This document shows, one piece after another, positions 12,557 through 25,500 of a DNA stretch of 38,422 nt. The notes under the pieces were generated by a model, which worked only from the letters and a program-made list of their open reading frames with translations, had not been told where the DNA came from and made no database searches. Each line of letters opens with the position of its first letter. Within the stretch, counting starts at the first letter, position 1. Made by a program: the position numbers and the translations under genes. This stretch comes from Burkholderiales bacterium (lineage in GTDB: Bacteria; Pseudomonadota; Gammaproteobacteria; Burkholderiales; JAEUOS01), in the NCBI GenBank assembly GCA_947473125.1, contig CANJDH010000040.1, positions 1-38,422 of the forward strand, in the 5' to 3' direction.

Positions 12557-15394
<2,838 letters not shown>

Positions 15395-17932: not shown

Positions 17933-18574
17933 ATGTTCCGCAAATACCTCATCACCGGGCTGCTGATCTGGCTGCCGCTGGCGATCACGCTCTGGGTGAT
18001 CCGCTTCATCGTTACCACGATGGACGGGGTGTTCCCTTCCTGGATGATTCCCGAGGTGGTCGAGCGCCAGCACATCCCGGGCCTGGGCCTGATGATGGCC
18101 GTGCTGCTGGTGTTTGTCACCGGGGTGCTTGCGGCCAATTTCATCGGTGAGCGCCTGGTGGTCTGGTGGGAATTGCTGCTCAACCGCATTCCGATCGTGC
18201 GGTCGATCTACTCCAGCGTCAAGCAGGTATCCGACACGATTCTGTCTCCCAACGGCCAGGCGTTTCGCAAGGCGGTGCTGGTGCAGTATCCGCGCGAAGG
18301 GGCCTGGACCATCGCCTTCCTGACCGGCGTGCCCGGCCCCGGCGTGGTTGAGCATCTGCCCGGCGAACATGTCAGCGTCTACGTGCCGACGACCCCCAAT
18401 CCGACTTCGGGGTTTTTCCTGATGCTGCCCAAGTCAGCCGTCATTGAACTCGACATGAGCGTTGACGCTGCCCTGAAATACATTGTTTCCATGGGCGTGG
18501 TGGCGCCGGGTAGCTCGGGCAACGGCCGCAATGGCCGTGGCGCCGGCGCCAGCGCCAATTACCCCCCGCTTTGA
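17933..18574 (+). CDS. DUF502 family membrane protein
   Basis: 213 aa. Two N-terminal membrane segments are visible, roughly residues 6-28 ([18 protein letters not shown]) and 48-70 ([19 protein letters not shown]). They are followed by the DUF502 core [36 protein letters not shown] and [17 protein letters not shown] Gly/Asn-rich tail ends the protein. The family is widespread beside aspS but its biochemical role is unknown. The stop codon overlaps an alternative TTG start of aspS, so the genes are tightly coupled. Confidence 0.93.
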
Positions 18575-18597
18575 AGTCTTCCTTGTCTGGAACAACC

Positions 18598-20379
18598 ATG
18601 CGTACCGATTACTGTGGCCTGATCAGCGCCAAACACCTAGACCAGACCGTGACCCTGAACGGCTGGGTCAACACCCGGCGTGACCACGGCGGCGTGATCT
18701 TCATCGACCTGCGTGACCGCGAAGGCGTGGTGCAGGTGGTGTGCAACCCGGGCCGTGCGGAGATGTTCGCCAACGCCGAAAAGATCCGCGGCGAGTACGT
18801 GGTCAAGGTGGTGGGCAAGGTGGTGCGGCGCGAGCCCGGCCTGGTCAACCCGAAGATCAGGAGCGGCGAAATCGAGGTGGTCTGCCACGAGCTTGAAGTG
18901 CTGAACGCGGCCATCACGCCGCCGTTCCAGATTGACGACGAGAACATCAACGAGAACGTGCGTTTGGAGCACCGCGTGATCGACCTGCGCCGCCCGCAGA
19001 TGCAGAAGAACCTGATGCTGCGCTACAAGGTGGCGCTGGCGGTACGCAATTATCTTGACCAGCAGGGTTTTGTCGACATCGAAACGCCGATGCTGACCAA
19101 GTCGACGCCGGAAGGTGCGCGCGACTACCTGGTGCCGTCGCGCGTGCATGACGGCATGTTCTTCGCACTGCCGCAGTCGCCGCAATTGTTCAAGCAGATG
19201 CTGATGGTGTCGGGGTTCGACCGCTACTACCAAATCACCAAGTGTTTTCGCGACGAAGACCTGCGCGCCGACCGGCAACCCGAGTTCACCCAGATCGACT
19301 GCGAGACCTCGTTCCTCACCGAAGTCGAGATCCGCGACATTTTCGAAGGCATGATCCGCAGCGTGTTCAAGTCGGCGATCGACGCCGACCTGCCGATGCA
19401 GTTTCCGGTGATGGCCTATTCCGAGGCGATGGCGCTGTACGGTTCCGACAAGCCCGACATGCGCGTCAGCCTGCGTTTTACCGAGCTCACCGACGTGATG
19501 AAGGACGTTGCCTTCAAGGTTTTCAGCGGCCCGGCGAACAGCCCGACCGGACGGGTCGCGGGTATGCTGGTTCCCGGCGGCGCGGCGCTGACGCGCGGCG
19601 AGATCGACGGTTACACCGAGTTCGTCAAGATTTACGGCGCCAAGGGCCTCGCCTACATCAAGGTCAACGATGTGACGCAACTCAACGAGACCGGCCTGCA
19701 GTCGCCGATCGTCAAGAACCTGTCGCCCGAATCGCTCAAGGCGATCATCGAGCGTACCGGCGCTGCAAACGGCGACCTGATCTTCTTCGGCGCCGACAAG
19801 GCCAAGGTGGTCAACGATGCAATCGGCGCGCTGCGCGTCAAGATCGGCCACGAAAAGAAACACCTCACCGGCGACAAGTGGCGCCCGCTGTGGGTGGTCG
19901 ATTTCCCGATGTTCGAGTACGACGACGAGGGCAAGCGCTGGAACGCGATGCATCACCCCTTTACCAGCCCGAAGGACGGCCACGAGGACTACCTCGACAC
20001 CGACCCCGGCAAAGCCACGGCCAAAGCCTACGACCTGGTGTTGAACGGCTGGGAAATGGGCGGCGGCTCGGTGCGGATCCACCGCGAAGCGGTGCAGAGC
20101 AAGGTGTTCCGCGCGCTCAACATCGGCGCCGAAGAAGCACAGTTGAAATTCGGCTTCCTGCTCGATGCGCTGCAATACGGCGCGCCGCCGCACGGCGGCA
20201 TTGCCTTCGGCCTGGACCGCATCGTGACGATGATGACAGGTGCCGAATCGATTCGCGACGTGATCGCTTTCCCGAAGACGCAGCGCGCCCAATGCCTGCT
20301 GACCCAGGCGCCGTCTGAGGTCGACGAGAAGCAGTTGCGCGAGTTGCACATCCGCTTGCGCAATACCAAAGTCGCGTAA
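18598..20379 (+). CDS. aspS: Aspartyl-tRNA synthetase
   Basis: 593 aa, bacterial-type class II AspRS. The N-terminal OB anticodon-binding domain starts [18 protein letters not shown] and contains [20 protein letters not shown]. Motif 2 is [18 protein letters not shown], the bacterial GAD insertion lies in the middle, and motif 3 is [14 protein letters not shown]. It charges tRNA-Asp, and in bacteria lacking AsnRS may also charge tRNA-Asn. The ATG at 18598 matches the family start; TTG 18571 overlapping the DUF502 stop is a possible alternative. A long open frame on the opposite strand is an artefact of GC-rich codon use. Confidence 0.98.
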
Positions 20380-20447
20380 GCTGGTGGTACGAGAGGTGCA
20401 GCGGCCGGCCGCCGGAGCCGAGTGCGCTGCGGTCAACCGAGGGCGAC

Positions 20448-20765
20448 ATGCCGACCTACCTGATTGCCGACATCAGGGTCATCAACCAGCAACGCTACGA
20501 CGAGTATCGCCCGCTGGTGCGTGACGCGGTACAGTGTTTCGGCGGACGCTATGTGGTGCGCACCAGTGATATCGGGGTGGTGGACGGCGGGTGGGCCCCG
20601 CCGCGATTGATCATGATTGAATTCCCGACACGTGCTGCGGCCGCCTTTTACAACTCCCCCGATTATCGCGAGGCACGCGACTTGCGCAGCAACGCCGCGA
20701 TGATGGACATTGTGCCGCTCCAAGAAGTGCCGGTCGATGATGCGCCGAACAGCACGTTTCTCTAG
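20448..20765 (+). CDS. DUF1330 domain-containing protein
   Basis: 105 aa small soluble protein with the ferredoxin-like dimeric alpha-beta barrel pattern of DUF1330. It begins YLIADIRVINQQRYDEY, then GGRYVVR, PPRLIMIEFPTRAAA and FYNSPDYREARDLR. Function in the family is unknown. It lies 68 bp after aspS, and its end overlaps the start of the following lipoprotein gene by 29 bp, so it belongs to the same transcript. Confidence 0.9.
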   Translation: MPTYLIADIRVINQQRYDEYRPLVRDAVQCFGGRYVVRTSDIGVVDGGWAPPRLIMIEFPTRAAAAFYNSPDYREARDLRSNAAMMDIVPLQEVPVDDAPNSTFL

Positions 20766-21015
20766 CGCCGCGCTGCTGTTGGCGGCTTGCTCGTCCGAGG
20801 CGCCGTCGTGGCCGCGCCTGATCGAAACGCGCATCGTCAGCCACTACCCTGCAGCCGAGGTGATGCGCGCGGACGATGCGCTCTCCATCCGCTTGAATGG
20901 GCGGGTGCACCGCGTCGAGTTGGGGCCGATCGTCCTGCAGTGCAACCGCGGCTTGTCCGATTGTGAACACGCCATGACCGAGATGCTCCTGGACCTGGGC
21001 AAGGAGCCGCGTTGA
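20737..21015 (+). CDS. Small hypothetical lipoprotein
   Basis: About 92 aa. Tandem ATG codons (20737 and 20740) start a short signal peptide with lipobox LLLAAC (Cys18). The mature part has the segments PRLIETRIVSHYPAAEVM and HRVELGPIVLQCNRGLSDC, with two Cys residues that could form a disulfide. No known domain is recognised. The start lies inside the DUF1330 gene (29-bp overlap in another frame) and the stop overlaps the nudB TTG start. Both overlaps argue that it is a real, translationally coupled gene. Confidence 0.75.
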   Translation: MMRRTARFSSAALLLAACSSEAPSWPRLIETRIVSHYPAAEVMRADDALSIRLNGRVHRVELGPIVLQCNRGLSDCEHAMTEMLLDLGKEPR

Positions 21016-21461
21016 CGGCCTTCAAGATCCCGGTCTCGGTGCTGGTGGTGATCCACACCGCCGACCTGCAGGTACTGGTACTCGAGCGCATGAGCGCGCC
21101 GGGCTTCTGGCAAAGCGTGACCGGCAGCCTGGACCGTGCCGACGAACCTCTGCGCGAGACCGCGATTCGCGAAGTGCGGGAAGAAACCGGCTTCGACGCC
21201 GCAGCGCCCGGGCATGTCCTGAGCGACTGGGGTTACACCAACCATTTTGAAATCTACAAACGCTGGGTCAGCCGCTACGGACCCGGCGTGACCCACAACA
21301 CCGAGCACGTGTGGGGCCTGCTGATCCCGGAGCCGGCGGTGCCGGTCTTGACCGAACACATCGCCTACGAATGGTTGCCGTGGCGTGATGCCGCCGACAA
21401 GTGTTTTTCCTGGAGCAACGCCGAGGCAATCCGCACATTGCTGGAACGCATCGCGCGGTGA
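21012..21461 (+). CDS. nudB: Dihydroneopterin triphosphate diphosphatase (Nudix)
   Basis: 149 aa. The Nudix box is GSLDRADEPLRETAIREVRE followed by ETGF, with one residue more than the canonical spacing between Gly and the first Glu. The C-terminal part WGLLIPEPAVPVLTEHIAYE and WSNAEAIRTLL fits NudB, which removes pyrophosphate from dihydroneopterin triphosphate in folate synthesis. The start is TTG (21012-21014), overlapping the lipoprotein stop, with AAGGAG five bases upstream, inside the lipoprotein gene. The nudB-near-aspS placement is common in betaproteobacteria. Its end overlaps a possible GTG start of the ydbH-like gene. Confidence 0.9.
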   Translation: MTAFKIPVSVLVVIHTADLQVLVLERMSAPGFWQSVTGSLDRADEPLRETAIREVREETGFDAAAPGHVLSDWGYTNHFEIYKRWVSRYGPGVTHNTEHVWGLLIPEPAVPVLTEHIAYEWLPWRDAADKCFSWSNAEAIRTLLERIAR

Positions 21462-21469
21462 CGGGCCTG

Positions 21470-23500
21470 ATGGCGATGCAGCAATTTGTCGCGCCCGTCA
21501 CGTGGCGCACCAGGTTCGGCCAGCGGCTGGTGCGCGAAGGCATCGCGGCCCTGCTGATTGCGTGCACCTGCGGGGCGCTGGCCCATGCGCAATCCCTGCA
21601 ACTCGAGCTGGAGACTCTGAGCGGCCCCGACTGGAGCGTGCGCAAGCTGCAACTTGCTCTGCAACAAGGTGGTGCGGCACGCCTCGGGCTCCAGGGGCTG
21701 GTGGCGCAGGGGCGCGCATGGGGCGACCTGACCCTTGAGTGCAAGCGCTTCACCATGGACCGCAGCGCGCTCAACTGCGCCGACGGCAATCTGGAGGGCA
21801 AGGAGCGCTGGCCGCTTTCCTTTACCGCCGACCTCGCGCGCAAGACTTTGTCGCTGCGCGTCGCCCCCGAGGCCGGGGAAGAGTGGCGCCTCGACATCAC
21901 CGGCGTGGATTGGCGCATCGCCCTCCAAAACGCTTCGGTCGCGCGGCTCGCACCGTTGCTGTCGGGCGCCATAAAACCCACGGCTGGCCGGGTGAGCGGC
22001 AACCTGCACCTGGGTGCGGGACGCGTCGACGCCGACCTGCGCATCGTTGACGCCGCGTTCGCTGACGCGACCGGCTTGCGTGCCGGCGAAAAACTGCAAG
22101 GGCGCCTGACCTTTGACGCAACGTCACATCCACGCCTCGGCGCGGCCGCAGCACCTGCCGATTGGGCCTGGACTGCGGCGCTGGCGTGGGACAAGGGCGC
22201 CGTGTTCTGGGATCCGCTATATCTGGCACACGAAGGGGCCGAGGCGCCGCATCGCCTCGACGCGCGCGGCCGCGTAACGGCCGGACGGGTGGTTGTCGAG
22301 CAGGCAAACCTCGAATGGCAGACACTGGGCCGGCTCAGCGGCAGCCTGGACTTCGGTCGCGACGCGTTCGACCTGGGAAGCTACACCGTCACCGGGAAGG
22401 GCCTGAACCTTTTCGAGCTGCGCGCACTGCTGCCGCAAACCTGGCTTGACGACAAACGCCTCGGCGATCTGGACCTGAAAGGCACAGCGGACTTGGCCTT
22501 GGTCGGCGGCATACGAGGTGTCGAGCAGTTCGCGCTCGCGCTCTCGGGGGTCAGGCTGCACGCAGCGCAGCGCCACCTGGGCATTGACAATCTGGCGGCA
22601 CGGTTCGACTATCGCTCAAGTGGGCGCGAGCCGTTCTTGTTGAGCATCGACGCCTTGCGTCTTCAGGACTTGCGCATCGGGCCGATCCGCGCCGAAGGGG
22701 AGTTGCGCGACGGGCGCCTTTACATTCCCAACCTGATCGCACCGGTGCTGGACGGCATCCTGGCGCTCGCCGAAATCGAAGTGGACCGCGAGTCGTTTTC
22801 GCTGCAGGGCGCCTTGACGTCCGTGTCGATGGAAAAGCTCACCGCCGCACTAGGCTGGCACCCACTGGGCGGTCAGCTCTCGTTTGTGTTGCCTCACGTC
22901 AGTTACGCCAGGTCAACAATGGCGGTCGATGGCGCGTTACTCTTCAAACTGTTTGACGGAGATGCACAGGTGGATGCGATGCGGCTGGAGAATCCGTTTG
23001 GCCGCACCCCGCGGCTGACCGCCAATCTGCACCTGAAGCGCATGAACCTCGAAGCCATGACCAGTGCAGTCAAGTTCGGCACCATGACTGGCCTGGTCGA
23101 TCTCGATGTCGACGGCCTTGTCATGGAGAACTGGCAGCCGGTGAGCATGGATGCCAGGGTGCTGACCAGCGAAGGCGCCTTCGCCAAGCGGATCAGCCAG
23201 CGCGCTGTGCAAAACATCTCGTCGATCGGCGGCGCCGGCGCCGGCGCCGCCATCCAGCGCAGCTTCCTGGGTTTTTTTGAAACTTTCGGTTACGACAAGA
23301 TCGGCCTGTCCTGCAAGCTGCGCAACGGCATTTGCGAAATGGGCGGGGCGGAGGACACCGCCAGCGGCTTCATGCTCATCAAGGGCGGCGGCCTGCCGTC
23401 GGTCAACGTGGTTGGTTACAATCGATTCGTCGGCTGGCAAGAGTTGCTCGATAGAATCCAGGCGGTGATCGACGGCAATTCCCGTCCCGTGTTCCAGTGA
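21470..23500 (+). CDS. ydbH: YdbH-like AsmA-superfamily intermembrane phospholipid transport protein
   Basis: About 676 aa from ATG 21470; GTG 21458, overlapping the nudB stop as GTGA, is an alternative. An N-terminal hydrophobic anchor (IAALLIACTCGALAHA) is followed by a long series of beta-rich segments without further membrane helices, as expected for a periplasm-spanning groove. YdbH family marks near the C-terminus include GLVDLDVDGLVMENWQPVSM, AVQNISSIGG and NVVGYNRFVGWQ. It is shorter than E. coli YdbH (about 880 aa). The next two genes are ynbE and ydbL, which settles the identification. In E. coli, YdbH joins YnbE to bridge inner and outer membranes and works redundantly with TamB and YhdP. 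Confidence 0.88.
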   Translation: MAMQQFVAPVTWRTRFGQRLVREGIAALLIACTCGALAHAQSLQLELETLSGPDWSVRKLQLALQQGGAARLGLQGLVAQGRAWGDLTLECKRFTMDRSALNCADGNLEGKERWPLSFTADLARKTLSLRVAPEAGEEWRLDITGVDWRIALQNASVARLAPLLSGAIKPTAGRVSGNLHLGAGRVDADLRIVDAAFADATGLRAGEKLQGRLTFDATSHPRLGAAAAPADWAWTAALAWDKGAVFWDPLYLAHEGAEAPHRLDARGRVTAGRVVVEQANLEWQTLGRLSGSLDFGRDAFDLGSYTVTGKGLNLFELRALLPQTWLDDKRLGDLDLKGTADLALVGGIRGVEQFALALSGVRLHAAQRHLGIDNLAARFDYRSSGREPFLLSIDALRLQDLRIGPIRAEGELRDGRLYIPNLIAPVLDGILALAEIEVDRESFSLQGALTSVSMEKLTAALGWHPLGGQLSFVLPHVSYARSTMAVDGALLFKLFDGDAQVDAMRLENPFGRTPRLTANLHLKRMNLEAMTSAVKFGTMTGLVDLDVDGLVMENWQPVSMDARVLTSEGAFAKRISQRAVQNISSIGGAGAGAAIQRSFLGFFETFGYDKIGLSCKLRNGICEMGGAEDTASGFMLIKGGGLPSVNVVGYNRFVGWQELLDRIQAVIDGNSRPVFQ

Positions 23501-23508
23501 GACCTCCC

Positions 23509-23691
23509 ATGCGCGCAACTTCCATCCTTTCAGCCCTCGCCGCGGCAACATTGGCTGCGGCGTGCGTGACGATCAACATTTATTTTCCCGCTGCTGCTGC
23601 AGAGAAGGCGGCGGACCGCATCATCGAAGAGGTGTATCAGTTGCGCAAGGATGCCCCCGCGTCTGCTCCCGTGCCTGCCGACAAGAAATGA
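23509..23691 (+). CDS. ynbE: YnbE-like lipoprotein
   Basis: 60 aa, the usual tiny size. The signal peptide ends at Cys19 (LAAAC). The mature start CVTINIYFPAAAAEKAAD is the YnbE hallmark, followed by RIIEEVYQLRK and an Ala/Pro tail. It is an outer membrane lipoprotein that caps YdbH to complete the transport bridge. It starts 8 bp after the ydbH-like stop and precedes ydbL by 7 bp. The ATG at 23509 is preferred over an upstream frame position because it gives a proper signal peptide. Confidence 0.93.
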   Translation: MRATSILSALAAATLAAACVTINIYFPAAAAEKAADRIIEEVYQLRKDAPASAPVPADKK

Positions 23692-23698
23692 GTTCCAC

Positions 23699-24109
23699 AT
23701 GAAAAAACTGCTGTTCGTCCTGCTGCTTGCATTAAGCCCGCTGGCGGCGCTGGCACAGGCCAATCTTGAAATCAACACGCCCGCCATTAACGGCCTCAAG
23801 CAGGCCATGGCGGGCCGGCACGCGCAACTGGCAGCACACTACGGCAGCGGCGCCATCGGCATCGCGCGTGACGGCAGCGTCAGCCTGCGCGACGCGAATG
23901 CCGTACCGCTGCCGCAACGCGCCGCCGTCAATGGTTTGCTGGGCGCGGAAAATGCCGATCGCGCCGCCCTCTACAAGGAGATCGCCCGCGCCAACGGCAA
24001 GCCCGAGTGGGAAGCCGAGATTCGCAATACCTTTGCGCAACGCTGGGCCGAGAAGGCTTCGCCGGGCTGGTACGTGCAGAACGCGCAAGGCCAGTGGGTC
24101 AAGAAATGA
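23699..24109 (+). CDS. ydbL: YdbL-like DUF1318 periplasmic protein
   Basis: 136 aa. A Lys-rich start and hydrophobic core (MKKLLFVLLLALSPLAALA) give a Sec signal peptide. The DUF1318 region has INTPAINGLKQAM, LPQRAAVNGLLGAENADRA, and ends with FAQRWAEKASPGWYVQNAQG. E. coli YdbL is a periplasmic partner reported to modulate YdbH-YnbE assembly. It begins 7 bp after ynbE, completing the trio in the usual order. An upstream frame from 23651 lies inside ynbE and is rejected. Confidence 0.93.
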   Translation: MKKLLFVLLLALSPLAALAQANLEINTPAINGLKQAMAGRHAQLAAHYGSGAIGIARDGSVSLRDANAVPLPQRAAVNGLLGAENADRAALYKEIARANGKPEWEAEIRNTFAQRWAEKASPGWYVQNAQGQWVKK

Positions 24110-24119
24110 GCGTTGTGGC

Positions 24120-24521
24120 ATGAACCCGGCGCTGACCAGCCTGCCACCCGGTATCACGCCGATCCTGTCGGTGGTGCCGATGCCATCCGACTCGAACCAG
24201 CACGGCGACATTTTCGGCGGCTGGCTGATGAGCCAGGTCGACATCGCCGGCGGCGTGGCGGCGGCACGTCGCGCGCGCGGCCGGGTCGCCACGGTGGCGG
24301 TCAATTCATTCACTTTCAAACAACCGGTGCTGATCGGTGACGTGGTGCTGTTCTATGCGTCGGTGGCCAAGGTCGGCCGCACCTCGATCACGGTCGAGGT
24401 CGAAGTGTATGCGCAGCGCAACCCGGCGATACTCGAGACGGTGAAGATTACCGAGGCTACGCTGACCTACGTGGCGACCGACCAGGAACGCCGGCCGCGC
24501 GCGGTGCCACCCGAGCAATGA
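24120..24521 (+). CDS. YciA-like acyl-CoA thioesterase (hotdog fold)
   Basis: 133 aa. The active-site helix region MPSDSNQHGDIFGGWLMSQV followed by DIAGG is the signature of the YciA/BACH acyl-CoA hydrolases, with the catalytic Asp in HGDIFGG. VAVNSFTFKQPVLIGDVV is the following strand. The enzyme hydrolyses acyl-CoA thioesters in the cytoplasm. It starts 10 bp after ydbL, so it is co-transcribed with the phospholipid transport trio; a link to membrane lipid turnover is inference. Confidence 0.92.
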   Translation: MNPALTSLPPGITPILSVVPMPSDSNQHGDIFGGWLMSQVDIAGGVAAARRARGRVATVAVNSFTFKQPVLIGDVVLFYASVAKVGRTSITVEVEVYAQRNPAILETVKITEATLTYVATDQERRPRAVPPEQ

Positions 24522-24588
24522 AGCGCGGTGCGTGCCGGGTCGATGGCCCAAGAAGCGCTCCCACCAACGGTTTTCAGGTGTCCTTCGG

Positions 24589-25074
24589 ATGACGGACAAG
24601 TCGATTCAGGCACGTTTCATCGCGGAAGTGGTGCCGCGACTGCAAAAGCACTGGAGCGAGGGCACCTGGATCGGCTGCGTGTTTCGTGCCGTGGGCGAAA
24701 CCGACAAGCTGCATGCGCATTACGTGGCTGCAGCGTGGGAACCGCCCGATCGCGGCGCCGCACCGATGATCGCGCGCCTGCCCGACGCTACCTATTTTGC
24801 ACCGCACGAGGCCGAGCGCGCGCTCATTGGCCTGCTCGATGCCTTGCCCGCCGGTACCAGATTGCACCTCGCCGGGCCGCAGCATATCGATCCGGCACTG
24901 GTTACGCAGGTGGTACTTTCCTCAGACCGGAACCTTTCGCCGGGGCTCAAGGAGGCGCTGGCGGCGTTTGTCGGCGCCGAGCAGGCGCGCAACGAGCATT
25001 CGATTCGCCAGAGCTATACCGACCGCGACGAGGCTTTCGAAGCTTTCAAGGGCAAGCTGTTCGGCAAGTCGTAG
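24589..25074 (+). CDS. Hypothetical protein
   Basis: 161 aa from ATG 24589 (an upstream GTG at 24532 is less likely). No family is recognised. It has no signal peptide and no membrane segment, so it is probably cytosolic. Visible features are an N-terminal amphipathic stretch (FIAEVVPRLQKHWSEGTW), a hydrophobic middle (ERALIGLLDALPAGTRLHL) and a charged C-terminal end (SIRQSYTDRDEAFEAFKGKL). It is 67 bp downstream of the thioesterase and looks like the last gene of the run. Confidence 0.7.
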   Translation: MTDKSIQARFIAEVVPRLQKHWSEGTWIGCVFRAVGETDKLHAHYVAAAWEPPDRGAAPMIARLPDATYFAPHEAERALIGLLDALPAGTRLHLAGPQHIDPALVTQVVLSSDRNLSPGLKEALAAFVGAEQARNEHSIRQSYTDRDEAFEAFKGKLFGKS

Positions 25075-25200
25075 CCGACGCGCGGGCATGCCGATTGGCC
25101 GCGGCCTGTCCGCATGGCATTCGCATGCAAGATTTCCTCAAGTTTTGCCGCTGGCGGCCGATAAGCTGCTTGAATCCTTCAATTCGAACAGGAACCCGCC

Positions 25201-25500
25201 ATGAAACGCACCCTGATGGTCAGCCTGATGCTGGCCGCCCCACTTGCCTTTACGATGGCACAAGCCGAAGTTGCCGACACGGCCGTGGCCGGGCAAAAGC
25301 TGGACAGTGACCTGGGCAGCCTGCCGGCTTACGGCGAGTGGCATCGCCACGCGCACCTCAAGCGCCTTGTGGTGTCTGATGTCGGCGTGGCCACCGGCGA
25401 AAAAATCGACAGCGGGCTGGGCGATCTGCCCCCTTACGCAAGCTGGGGCCGGCATCCCGAGTTGCGCCACTTCGCCTCCCCGGCGATGGCCGGCATCTAG
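25201..25500 (+). CDS. Small exported protein with two internal repeats
   Basis: 99 aa. A Sec signal peptide (MKRTLMVSLMLAAPLAFTMA, cleavage probably after AQA) leads a mature protein of about 77 residues. Two copies of a 23-residue unit occur at 31-53 and 66-88, sharing the pattern G-x-K-x-DS-x-LG-x-LP-x-Y-x2-W-x-RH-x2-L (13 identical positions). Codon choice differs between copies, so the duplication is old. No known domain is recognised. AGGAA precedes the ATG. Its TAG overlaps the TAG of the opposite-strand CoA-transferase in the sequence CTAG. Function is unknown. Confidence 0.8.
   Translation: MKRTLMVSLMLAAPLAFTMAQAEVADTAVAGQKLDSDLGSLPAYGEWHRHAHLKRLVVSDVGVATGEKIDSGLGDLPPYASWGRHPELRHFASPAMAGI

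Follow-up and report, generated by a model that had tools for sequence, protein, structure and literature searches.

Gene order at the locus

The stretch of DNA analysed here, which we call the window, covers 38,422 nucleotides (bases 1-38422 of contig C40; the genome, from the Burkholderiales, is 97% complete and comprises 4.9 Mb on 209 contigs) and carries on its plus strand a trio of genes for a YdbH-like protein, presumably with a beta-groove, a small YnbE-like lipoprotein and YdbL, arranged as in the ydbH-ynbE-ydbL genes of Escherichia coli. The trio is a distant and widespread relative of a known system that conveys lipid to the outer membrane. In that system YdbH is described as one of three redundant E. 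coli proteins for outer-membrane lipid homeostasis, and a plasmid with ydbH-ynbE-ydbL as a suppressor of the E. coli tamB yhdP mutant (PMC8593681); YdbH is also reported to interact with the outer-membrane lipoprotein YnbE (PMC12977461; PMC11784454). The route that phospholipids take to the outer membrane has yet to be settled, and the studies consulted here deal with proteins of the E. coli type. The three genes of the window are the following.

21458 to 23500, plus strand: YdbH-like (type II) protein, putatively with an AsmA-like beta-groove, starting at GTG 21458 or ATG 21470
23509 to 23691, plus strand: YnbE-like small lipoprotein, with a lipobox followed by CVTINIYFPAAAAEKAADRII (alignment A2, 24 members)
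23699 to 24109, plus strand: YdbL (DUF1318), PF07027 with E = 1.3e-21, with its own signal peptide by eye

Gaps of 8 bp and 7 bp separate the first gene from the second and the second from the third, and the same unit recurs in relatives. Of 440 loci of relatives in named genomes we took the best 80, for the most part from betaproteobacteria to judge by the titles; as in the window, ynbE and ydbL stand as separate genes beside the YdbH-like gene in 79 of them, with a YnbE-like protein in the place of YnbE, and the remaining locus shows neither. Within the taxonomic order of the window, 120 genomes were sampled with a single YdbH-like protein as query and 29 loci besides the window were read, each with flanks of up to 1.5 kb. 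The two smaller genes lie directly downstream of the YdbH-like gene in 27 of these loci, and in the two exceptions (G073 and G025) ynbE-ydbL is sited elsewhere in the same genome.

The YdbH-like protein

Comparison of the first protein of the trio with Pfam and NCBIfam gave no match to the YdbH families, including the Pfam YdbH model PF11739, at E values up to 1, and the genome of the window as a whole also has no PF11739 match. Hits to the AsmA superfamily were weak, each coming from one of the 23 members of the alignment (PF11739, 1.6e-4; T2SSN, 2.3e-4; DUF748, 2.1e-3). Profile-profile comparison paired the YdbH-like family with the C-terminal half of E. coli-type YdbH over 260 columns (Prob 88, E = 3.1e-6). 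Because PF11739 is missed and the family match is only distant, we label the protein YdbH-like, type II, rather than YdbH. The names YdbH and YnbE given in the original prediction hold as resemblances and do not hold as family assignments, for which there were no hits.

The structure model of the protein (pLDDT 84.1, pTM 0.69) consists mostly of long strands. Its best match in the Protein Data Bank (PDB) by Foldseek is the lipid carrier ApoB100 (E = 8.4e-4), followed by LptD, both weak; VIA-align also ranks ApoB100 best (Z 11.9, rmsd 14.1 over 316 residues), followed by porins. Sequence searches of the PDB with the YdbH profiles, that of type II and that of the E. coli type, gave no match. Cysteines 95, 107, 619 and 626 (numbering of the window's protein) are invariant in the window and 22 relatives (23/23, alignment A1), and these four residues could form two conserved periplasmic disulfides.

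At its N-terminus the protein has a predicted cleavable signal peptide, with GALAHA before QSLQLEL. Cleavage of signal peptides follows a rule for the residues at -3 and -1, and an alignment of 115 type II N-termini reveals basic residues and a hydrophobic core, with Ala at -3 in 70 rows, Ala, Gly or Ser at -1 in 101 rows, a variable -2 position and the first beta-strand directly after the site. The best 19-residue hydropathy, taken over stretches of 40 residues in both groups, averages 1.83 in type II (n = 115) and 1.79 in the split YdbL signal peptides (n = 24), whereas the PF11739-type proteins (E. coli YdbH and seven others, first 70 residues) have a strong hydrophobic anchor that averages 2.54 (n = 8). 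By this pattern and the lower hydropathy, type II is predicted not to have the N-terminal inner-membrane anchor of YdbH. Because the N-termini show the signal-peptide pattern, the mature type II protein is probably without such an anchor.

The YnbE-like protein and YdbL

The second gene codes for a short lipoprotein of 60 amino acids (aa) between the YdbH-like gene and ydbL, in which the Cys after the lipobox is invariant among the 24 aligned members. Past the lipobox, no homology with YnbE of the E. coli type was found. Neither Pfam nor NCBIfam gave a YnbE match for the window's protein at E values up to 1, and the Pfam YnbE family also has no hit in 27 fused relatives described below.

Within the trio, YdbL alone is a clear family member. 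The window's protein passes PF07027 with 77.4 bits (cut-off 27), its signal peptide reads by eye as SPLAALA before QANLEINTPAI, and its profile matches that of E. coli-type YdbL with Prob 98. The YdbL domain of the fused relatives matches the crystal structure of E. coli YdbL (28oj), a molecule labelled as a probable chaperone-like protein, both in sequence and in fold, the model of the fused relative L134 superposing on it with prob 1.00 and TM 0.78 by target length. A second DUF1318 match was seen in the closest relative found, genome G052 (locus L190, contig C56), with a lipobox-like stretch in frame and no match to the YnbE-like profile; this frame is perhaps a lipoprotein paralogue of YdbL.

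Distribution of type II and of the Pfam type

Proteins of the two types were counted in a class sample of 143 genomes and in the order sample of 120 genomes, which together hold 261 distinct genomes. In the class sample type II outnumbers the Pfam type by nearly two to one (24 genomes against 13 out of 143, 12 of the latter over the cut-off), and in the order sample it was found in 34 genomes against two with PF11739, one of them over the cut-off. A phylum sample of 249 genomes, in which only type II was counted, yielded 14 type II genomes, nine of them outside the class. The two types never occur in the same genome (0/143 in the class sample, 0/120 in the order sample), and the chance of this, phylogeny being ignored, comes to 0.02 when the samples are pooled, and to 0.08 and 0.5 in the class and the order sample taken singly. 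In a tree of YdbL the two types fall on either side of a single branch (support 100/99), which is about 4.8 changes per column long.

Fusion of the YnbE-like protein to YdbL

Outside the order, the window's own genome aside, ynbE and ydbL form one open frame in all 23 type II genomes of the class sample. This frame lies directly behind the YdbH-like gene in 21 of them and elsewhere in the genome in two (G152 and G186). Among 12 further loci of the phylum sample (L162-L173), six are fused, two of them in the class and four outside it, and the other six have neither a YnbE-like nor a YdbL domain in the stretch covered. No fused frame was found within the order, and plasmid searches for the fused form gave no match. 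That the YnbE-like protein is fused to YdbL outside the order supports the view that the two act together, so that nature itself lends genomic support to their partnership. The fused loci are the following.

L132-L154 (except L141 and L145), L162, L163, L165, L167-L169, L186 and L187: fused YnbE-like-YdbL frame with an internal AxA motif before the YdbL domain

We aligned 27 of the fused proteins (A4), leaving out L156, a repeat of the L152 genome, and not including L186 and L187, which have by eye AYA and AVA at the place of the motif. The linker is mostly variable, with an Ala share of 13% and Pro at position 64 in 24 of 26 proteins, and in the structure models it is of low confidence, as opposed to 96-98 in the YdbL domain. 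The internal AxA has Ala at -1 in 27/27 and at -3 in 26/27 (Val in L168), a free -2 position and no Pro at +1. Such an arrangement is the pattern of signal peptidase I, and it coincides with the place where the signal peptide of the split YdbL of the order is cut.

Two other readings of the fused genes were considered and found unlikely. One is independent internal translation of YdbL: in the stretch before the site an in-frame ATG is present in 4 of the 27 fused genes (any of ATG, GTG or TTG in 13/27). Recent repeated fusion as the source of the AxA is disfavoured by an L-D/E-aromatic-hydrophobic-P motif that many fused proteins share by eye and that by eye is missing from the split signal peptides; the YdbL tree is compatible with a single origin of the fused form without demonstrating it. 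A literature search for precursors of bacterial proteins that are cleaved at an internal signal peptide turned up mostly viral or unrelated papers. In the titles and abstract starts of papers found by searching an open-licence library, subscription papers lying mostly outside, no description of a fused YnbE-YdbL or of an unanchored YdbH type was met with, which is weak evidence of novelty.

Genes flanking the trio

The trio stands in a tight run of seven genes, all open and co-directional on the plus strand, whose other members, together with a further gene downstream, are listed here.

20448 to 20765, plus strand: DUF1330 protein (PF07045, E = 2.9e-23), belonging to the aspS-nudB block and not to the trio
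20737 to 21015, plus strand: predicted lipoprotein of 92 aa, LLAAC lipobox by eye, no known family, aspS-nudB block
21012 to 21461, plus strand: nudB, dihydroneopterin triphosphate diphosphatase, TTG start (NCBIfam NF006961 equivalog, 203 bits, cut-off 103)
24120 to 24521, plus strand: 4HBT hotdog thioesterase (PF03061, E = 6.7e-20)
24589 to 25074, plus strand: neighbouring protein of 161 aa without a Pfam or NCBIfam family

The original prediction had described seven genes that overlap or lie within about 10 bp of each other with the trio among them, and this holds in position and in spacing. The DUF1330 and lipoprotein genes overlap by 29 bp, the lipoprotein gene and nudB by 4 bp, and nudB and the YdbH-like gene by 4 bp if the latter starts at GTG 21458 (a start at ATG 21470 leaves a gap of 8 bp); the thioesterase gene follows ydbL after 10 bp. 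Upstream, aspS ends at 20379, 68 bp before the DUF1330 gene, and downstream 67 bp separate the thioesterase from the 161-aa gene. Scanned with consensus patterns, the stretch 18400-25500 gave no terminator-like site, where shuffles average 6.4, and a single promoter-like one, located on the minus strand, where shuffles average 1.0. Given that the scan returned no terminator-like site, separate transcripts are not indicated, with the reservation that such a scan is weak evidence.

The same prediction had also joined the flanking genes to the lipid-bridge system, and this part was not borne out when the gene order of relatives was checked. AspS, NudB, DUF1330 and the 92-aa lipoprotein are beside the trio in none of the best 80 loci within the flanks covered (at least 1.5 kb upstream in 68/80 and downstream in 77/80; 3 kb on both sides in 55/80) and in none of the 29 order loci. 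The thioesterase together with the 161-aa gene is beside it in one of the 80 (L035), and the thioesterase in one of the 29. The locus L035 shares its contig coordinates with G052; we take both to be the same genome, the closest relative found and a member of the window's family. There the upstream block is unbroken on contig C85 (identities of 86% for aspS, 58% for DUF1330, 34% for the lipoprotein and 79% for nudB), no ydbH match follows nudB within the 3.3 kb read, and the trio and the thioesterase are on a separate contig, C83. In E. coli, too, aspS adjoins nudB and ydbH-ynbE-ydbL is at a separate place. Since the upstream genes are missing from the flanks of all 80 and all 29 loci and the two blocks are separate in G052, the window marks the join of two blocks, an arrangement shared by no other locus examined, and the seat of the trio beside aspS-nudB looks like a local accident of gene order. 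Extra genes not conserved next to the trio were what the original prediction had named as speaking against it, and this is what the relatives show, save for the thioesterase and the 161-aa gene in a single one. On these grounds we rejected a link between aspS-nudB and the trio.

The two proteins proposed as new partners were rejected as well. The 92-aa lipoprotein keeps company with aspS and nudB, its relative in G052 standing between DUF1330 and nudB, and it has matches in only 4 of the 120 order genomes, two of them marginal (E = 0.0015 and 0.0058). The 161-aa protein occurs in 5 of the 120 order genomes, the window's own included, four of these five being in its family. It was present in all four family genomes drawn, among them G002 and G097 (84 and 90% complete), which keep the gene and have no YdbH-like match; the YdbH-like protein itself is in two of the five genomes of the family, counting the window's own. 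The thioesterase passes 4HBT and falls short of the equivalog of YciA, to which it had been likened (121 bits, cut-off 162).

Three further observations concern the surroundings of these genes. In L035 the relative of the 161-aa protein lies at 13571-14062 and is followed by a frame of 883 codons, helicase-like by eye. In the aspS-nudB block of the nearest relative (L033, 875-1545) the DUF1330 gene apparently holds, by eye, two tandem DUF1330 domains. Further along the window, at 25201-25500, a 99-aa protein begins with what resembles a signal peptide and contains two stretches that are alike, LDSDLGSLPAYGEWHRH and IDSGLGDLPPYASWGRH; by eye it would be a small secreted repeat protein.

Discussion

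Taking all these results, we give a probability of about 0.7 to the reading that a divergent lipid-bridge system of the YdbH type is present here in its split form, placed behind an unrelated aspS-DUF1330-lipoprotein-nudB block, and that the 92-aa lipoprotein and the enzymes on either side are neighbours and not partners of the trio. By analogy with E. coli, the YdbH-like protein would be exported with its cleavable signal peptide and fold in the periplasm as an open hydrophobic beta-groove along which phospholipids could pass. The YnbE-like lipoprotein, presumably in the outer membrane, would join the conserved C-terminal end of this groove by adding its TINIYF strand, and YdbL would act as a periplasmic chaperone that stops this strand from assembling with itself. 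A 2024 paper reportedly describes YnbE as stacking by beta-strands and YdbL as its chaperone. The TamB family PF04357 has no match in the window's own genome, and the same family was found in 6 of 14 control genomes, distant phyla included. Because this genome is without a PF04357 match although it is 97% complete, the lipid bridge may matter more to it than the corresponding bridge does to E. coli.

Several points weigh against this reading. The family profile of the YdbH-like protein against the single E. coli YdbH reaches only Prob 3; neither YdbH nor TamB is among the Foldseek and VIA-align matches listed, which are loose or weak; and hhalign pairs the YnbE-like protein with E. coli-type YnbE over 17 signal-peptide columns, the lipobox only (Prob 48). 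The signal-peptide call was made from alignment columns and hydropathy, with no dedicated predictor, on 115 N-termini that include related and probably some repeated genomes, as only identical strings were removed. At -1, 14 of the 115 rows are without Ala, Gly or Ser, and a strict AxA after the hydrophobic peak, as scored by script, is present in 67/115 against 23/24 of the YdbL controls. Moreover, a groove without an inner-membrane anchor has no evident route of lipid uptake.

Part of this evidence leans toward two other views of the first protein, each of which we consider unlikely. It might be another member of the AsmA superfamily that stands beside YdbL as a non-orthologous replacement of YdbH, as the missing PF11739 hit, the ranking of PF11739 beside T2SSN and DUF748 in one member each, the long branch in the YdbL tree and the differing N-termini of the two types would suggest; the profile match, however, runs across the C-terminal half of YdbH, the gene order with its small lipoprotein and YdbL is the same, and the two types have not been met together in any genome sampled. 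Alternatively, the N-terminal hydrophobic segment might stay uncleaved as an inner-membrane anchor, giving the architecture of E. coli YdbH, in keeping with the members that have no clean AxA (L006, L008 and L010, for example) and with the overlap of hydropathy with that of anchors (45/115 at 1.9 or above). This sits poorly with the strong -3/-1 pattern and the variable -2 across the 115 rows, and with the strict AxA being found in 67/115 of them as against 1 of 7 PF11739-type proteins scored. A single functional unit with new partners, made up of the trio and nudB together with the 92-aa lipoprotein, the thioesterase and the 161-aa protein, is highly improbable: the tight spacing and overlaps, the scan without a terminator-like site and the thioesterase and 161-aa gene downstream of the trio in the nearest relative are what can be said for it, against upstream genes that accompany none of the other loci, two separate blocks in G052 and a 161-aa gene kept in two family genomes without a YdbH-like match, albeit genomes of 84 and 90% completeness. 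The wiring of the trio to aspS, nudB and acyl-CoA enzymes therefore carries no weight, as it looks like an accident of local gene order, and what makes the locus interesting lies almost wholly in the fusion and in the features of type II rather than in its gene neighbourhood.

With regard to the fused proteins, whether the chain is cut at the internal AxA is about an even matter. We give an even chance to the view that AxA is a structural or binding motif of a chain that stays intact as a chaperone tethered to the outer membrane. The stretch that leads up to the site is less hydrophobic than the signal peptides of split YdbL are (best 9-residue hydropathy 1.90, n = 27, as compared with 2.78, n = 24) and contains D or E in 18 of the 27 proteins, it is not obvious that the topology of an exported lipoprotein would bring this stretch before signal peptidase I, and the motif resembles by eye the FPAAAAE stretch of the YnbE-like part. 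What an intact chain explains less readily is the near-invariant Ala at -1 and -3, a signal peptidase I-like pattern just where split YdbL is cut, within a linker whose other positions mostly vary and whose models are of low confidence. A broader scheme can be offered tentatively, in which type II forms a second and widespread line of bridges that carry lipid to the outer membrane, with an unanchored groove, and in the class-sample genomes outside the order the fused YnbE-like-YdbL precursor is cut at the internal AxA. Such a cut would yield cap and chaperone in equal numbers, and the order of the window would have split the precursor, its internal segment becoming the signal peptide of YdbL, or the reverse. 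The conserved motif offers a one-residue test of precursor cutting, and type II, seemingly unanchored, would if this holds true raise the question of how far the bridge model depends on an inner-membrane anchor.

Comparison with known systems

The trio of the window shares with ydbH-ynbE-ydbL of E. coli the order of the three genes, with the putative beta-groove protein first and a small lipoprotein in the middle, and its YdbL agrees with E. coli YdbL in sequence and, judged by a fused relative, in fold; it differs in standing beside aspS-nudB. Its first protein has 676-680 aa as against the 879 of E. coli YdbH, has no PF11739 match and shows a signal-peptide pattern in place of an anchor. The YnbE-like protein is of a type without the PITINLNVKIEHEI core of E. 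coli YnbE and has CVTINIYFPAAAAEKAADxII. In Pseudomonas aeruginosa, the YdbH protein PA5307 (855 aa) is described as part of a redundant set of four AsmA-like proteins required for growth and is assigned to PF11739 (PMC10900882), for which reason we count it with the E. coli type. With TamB, YhdP, GspN and DUF748 of the AsmA superfamily the YdbH-like protein is expected to share a long beta-groove architecture, and single members of its family match Pfam models of this superfamily weakly, whereas the window's protein itself has no significant hit. The fused YnbE-YdbL lipoproteins in and outside the class have the same YnbE-like and YdbL sequence, mostly behind a type II YdbH-like gene, and differ from the window in forming one polypeptide with an internal AxA, where the window has two genes and two signal peptides.

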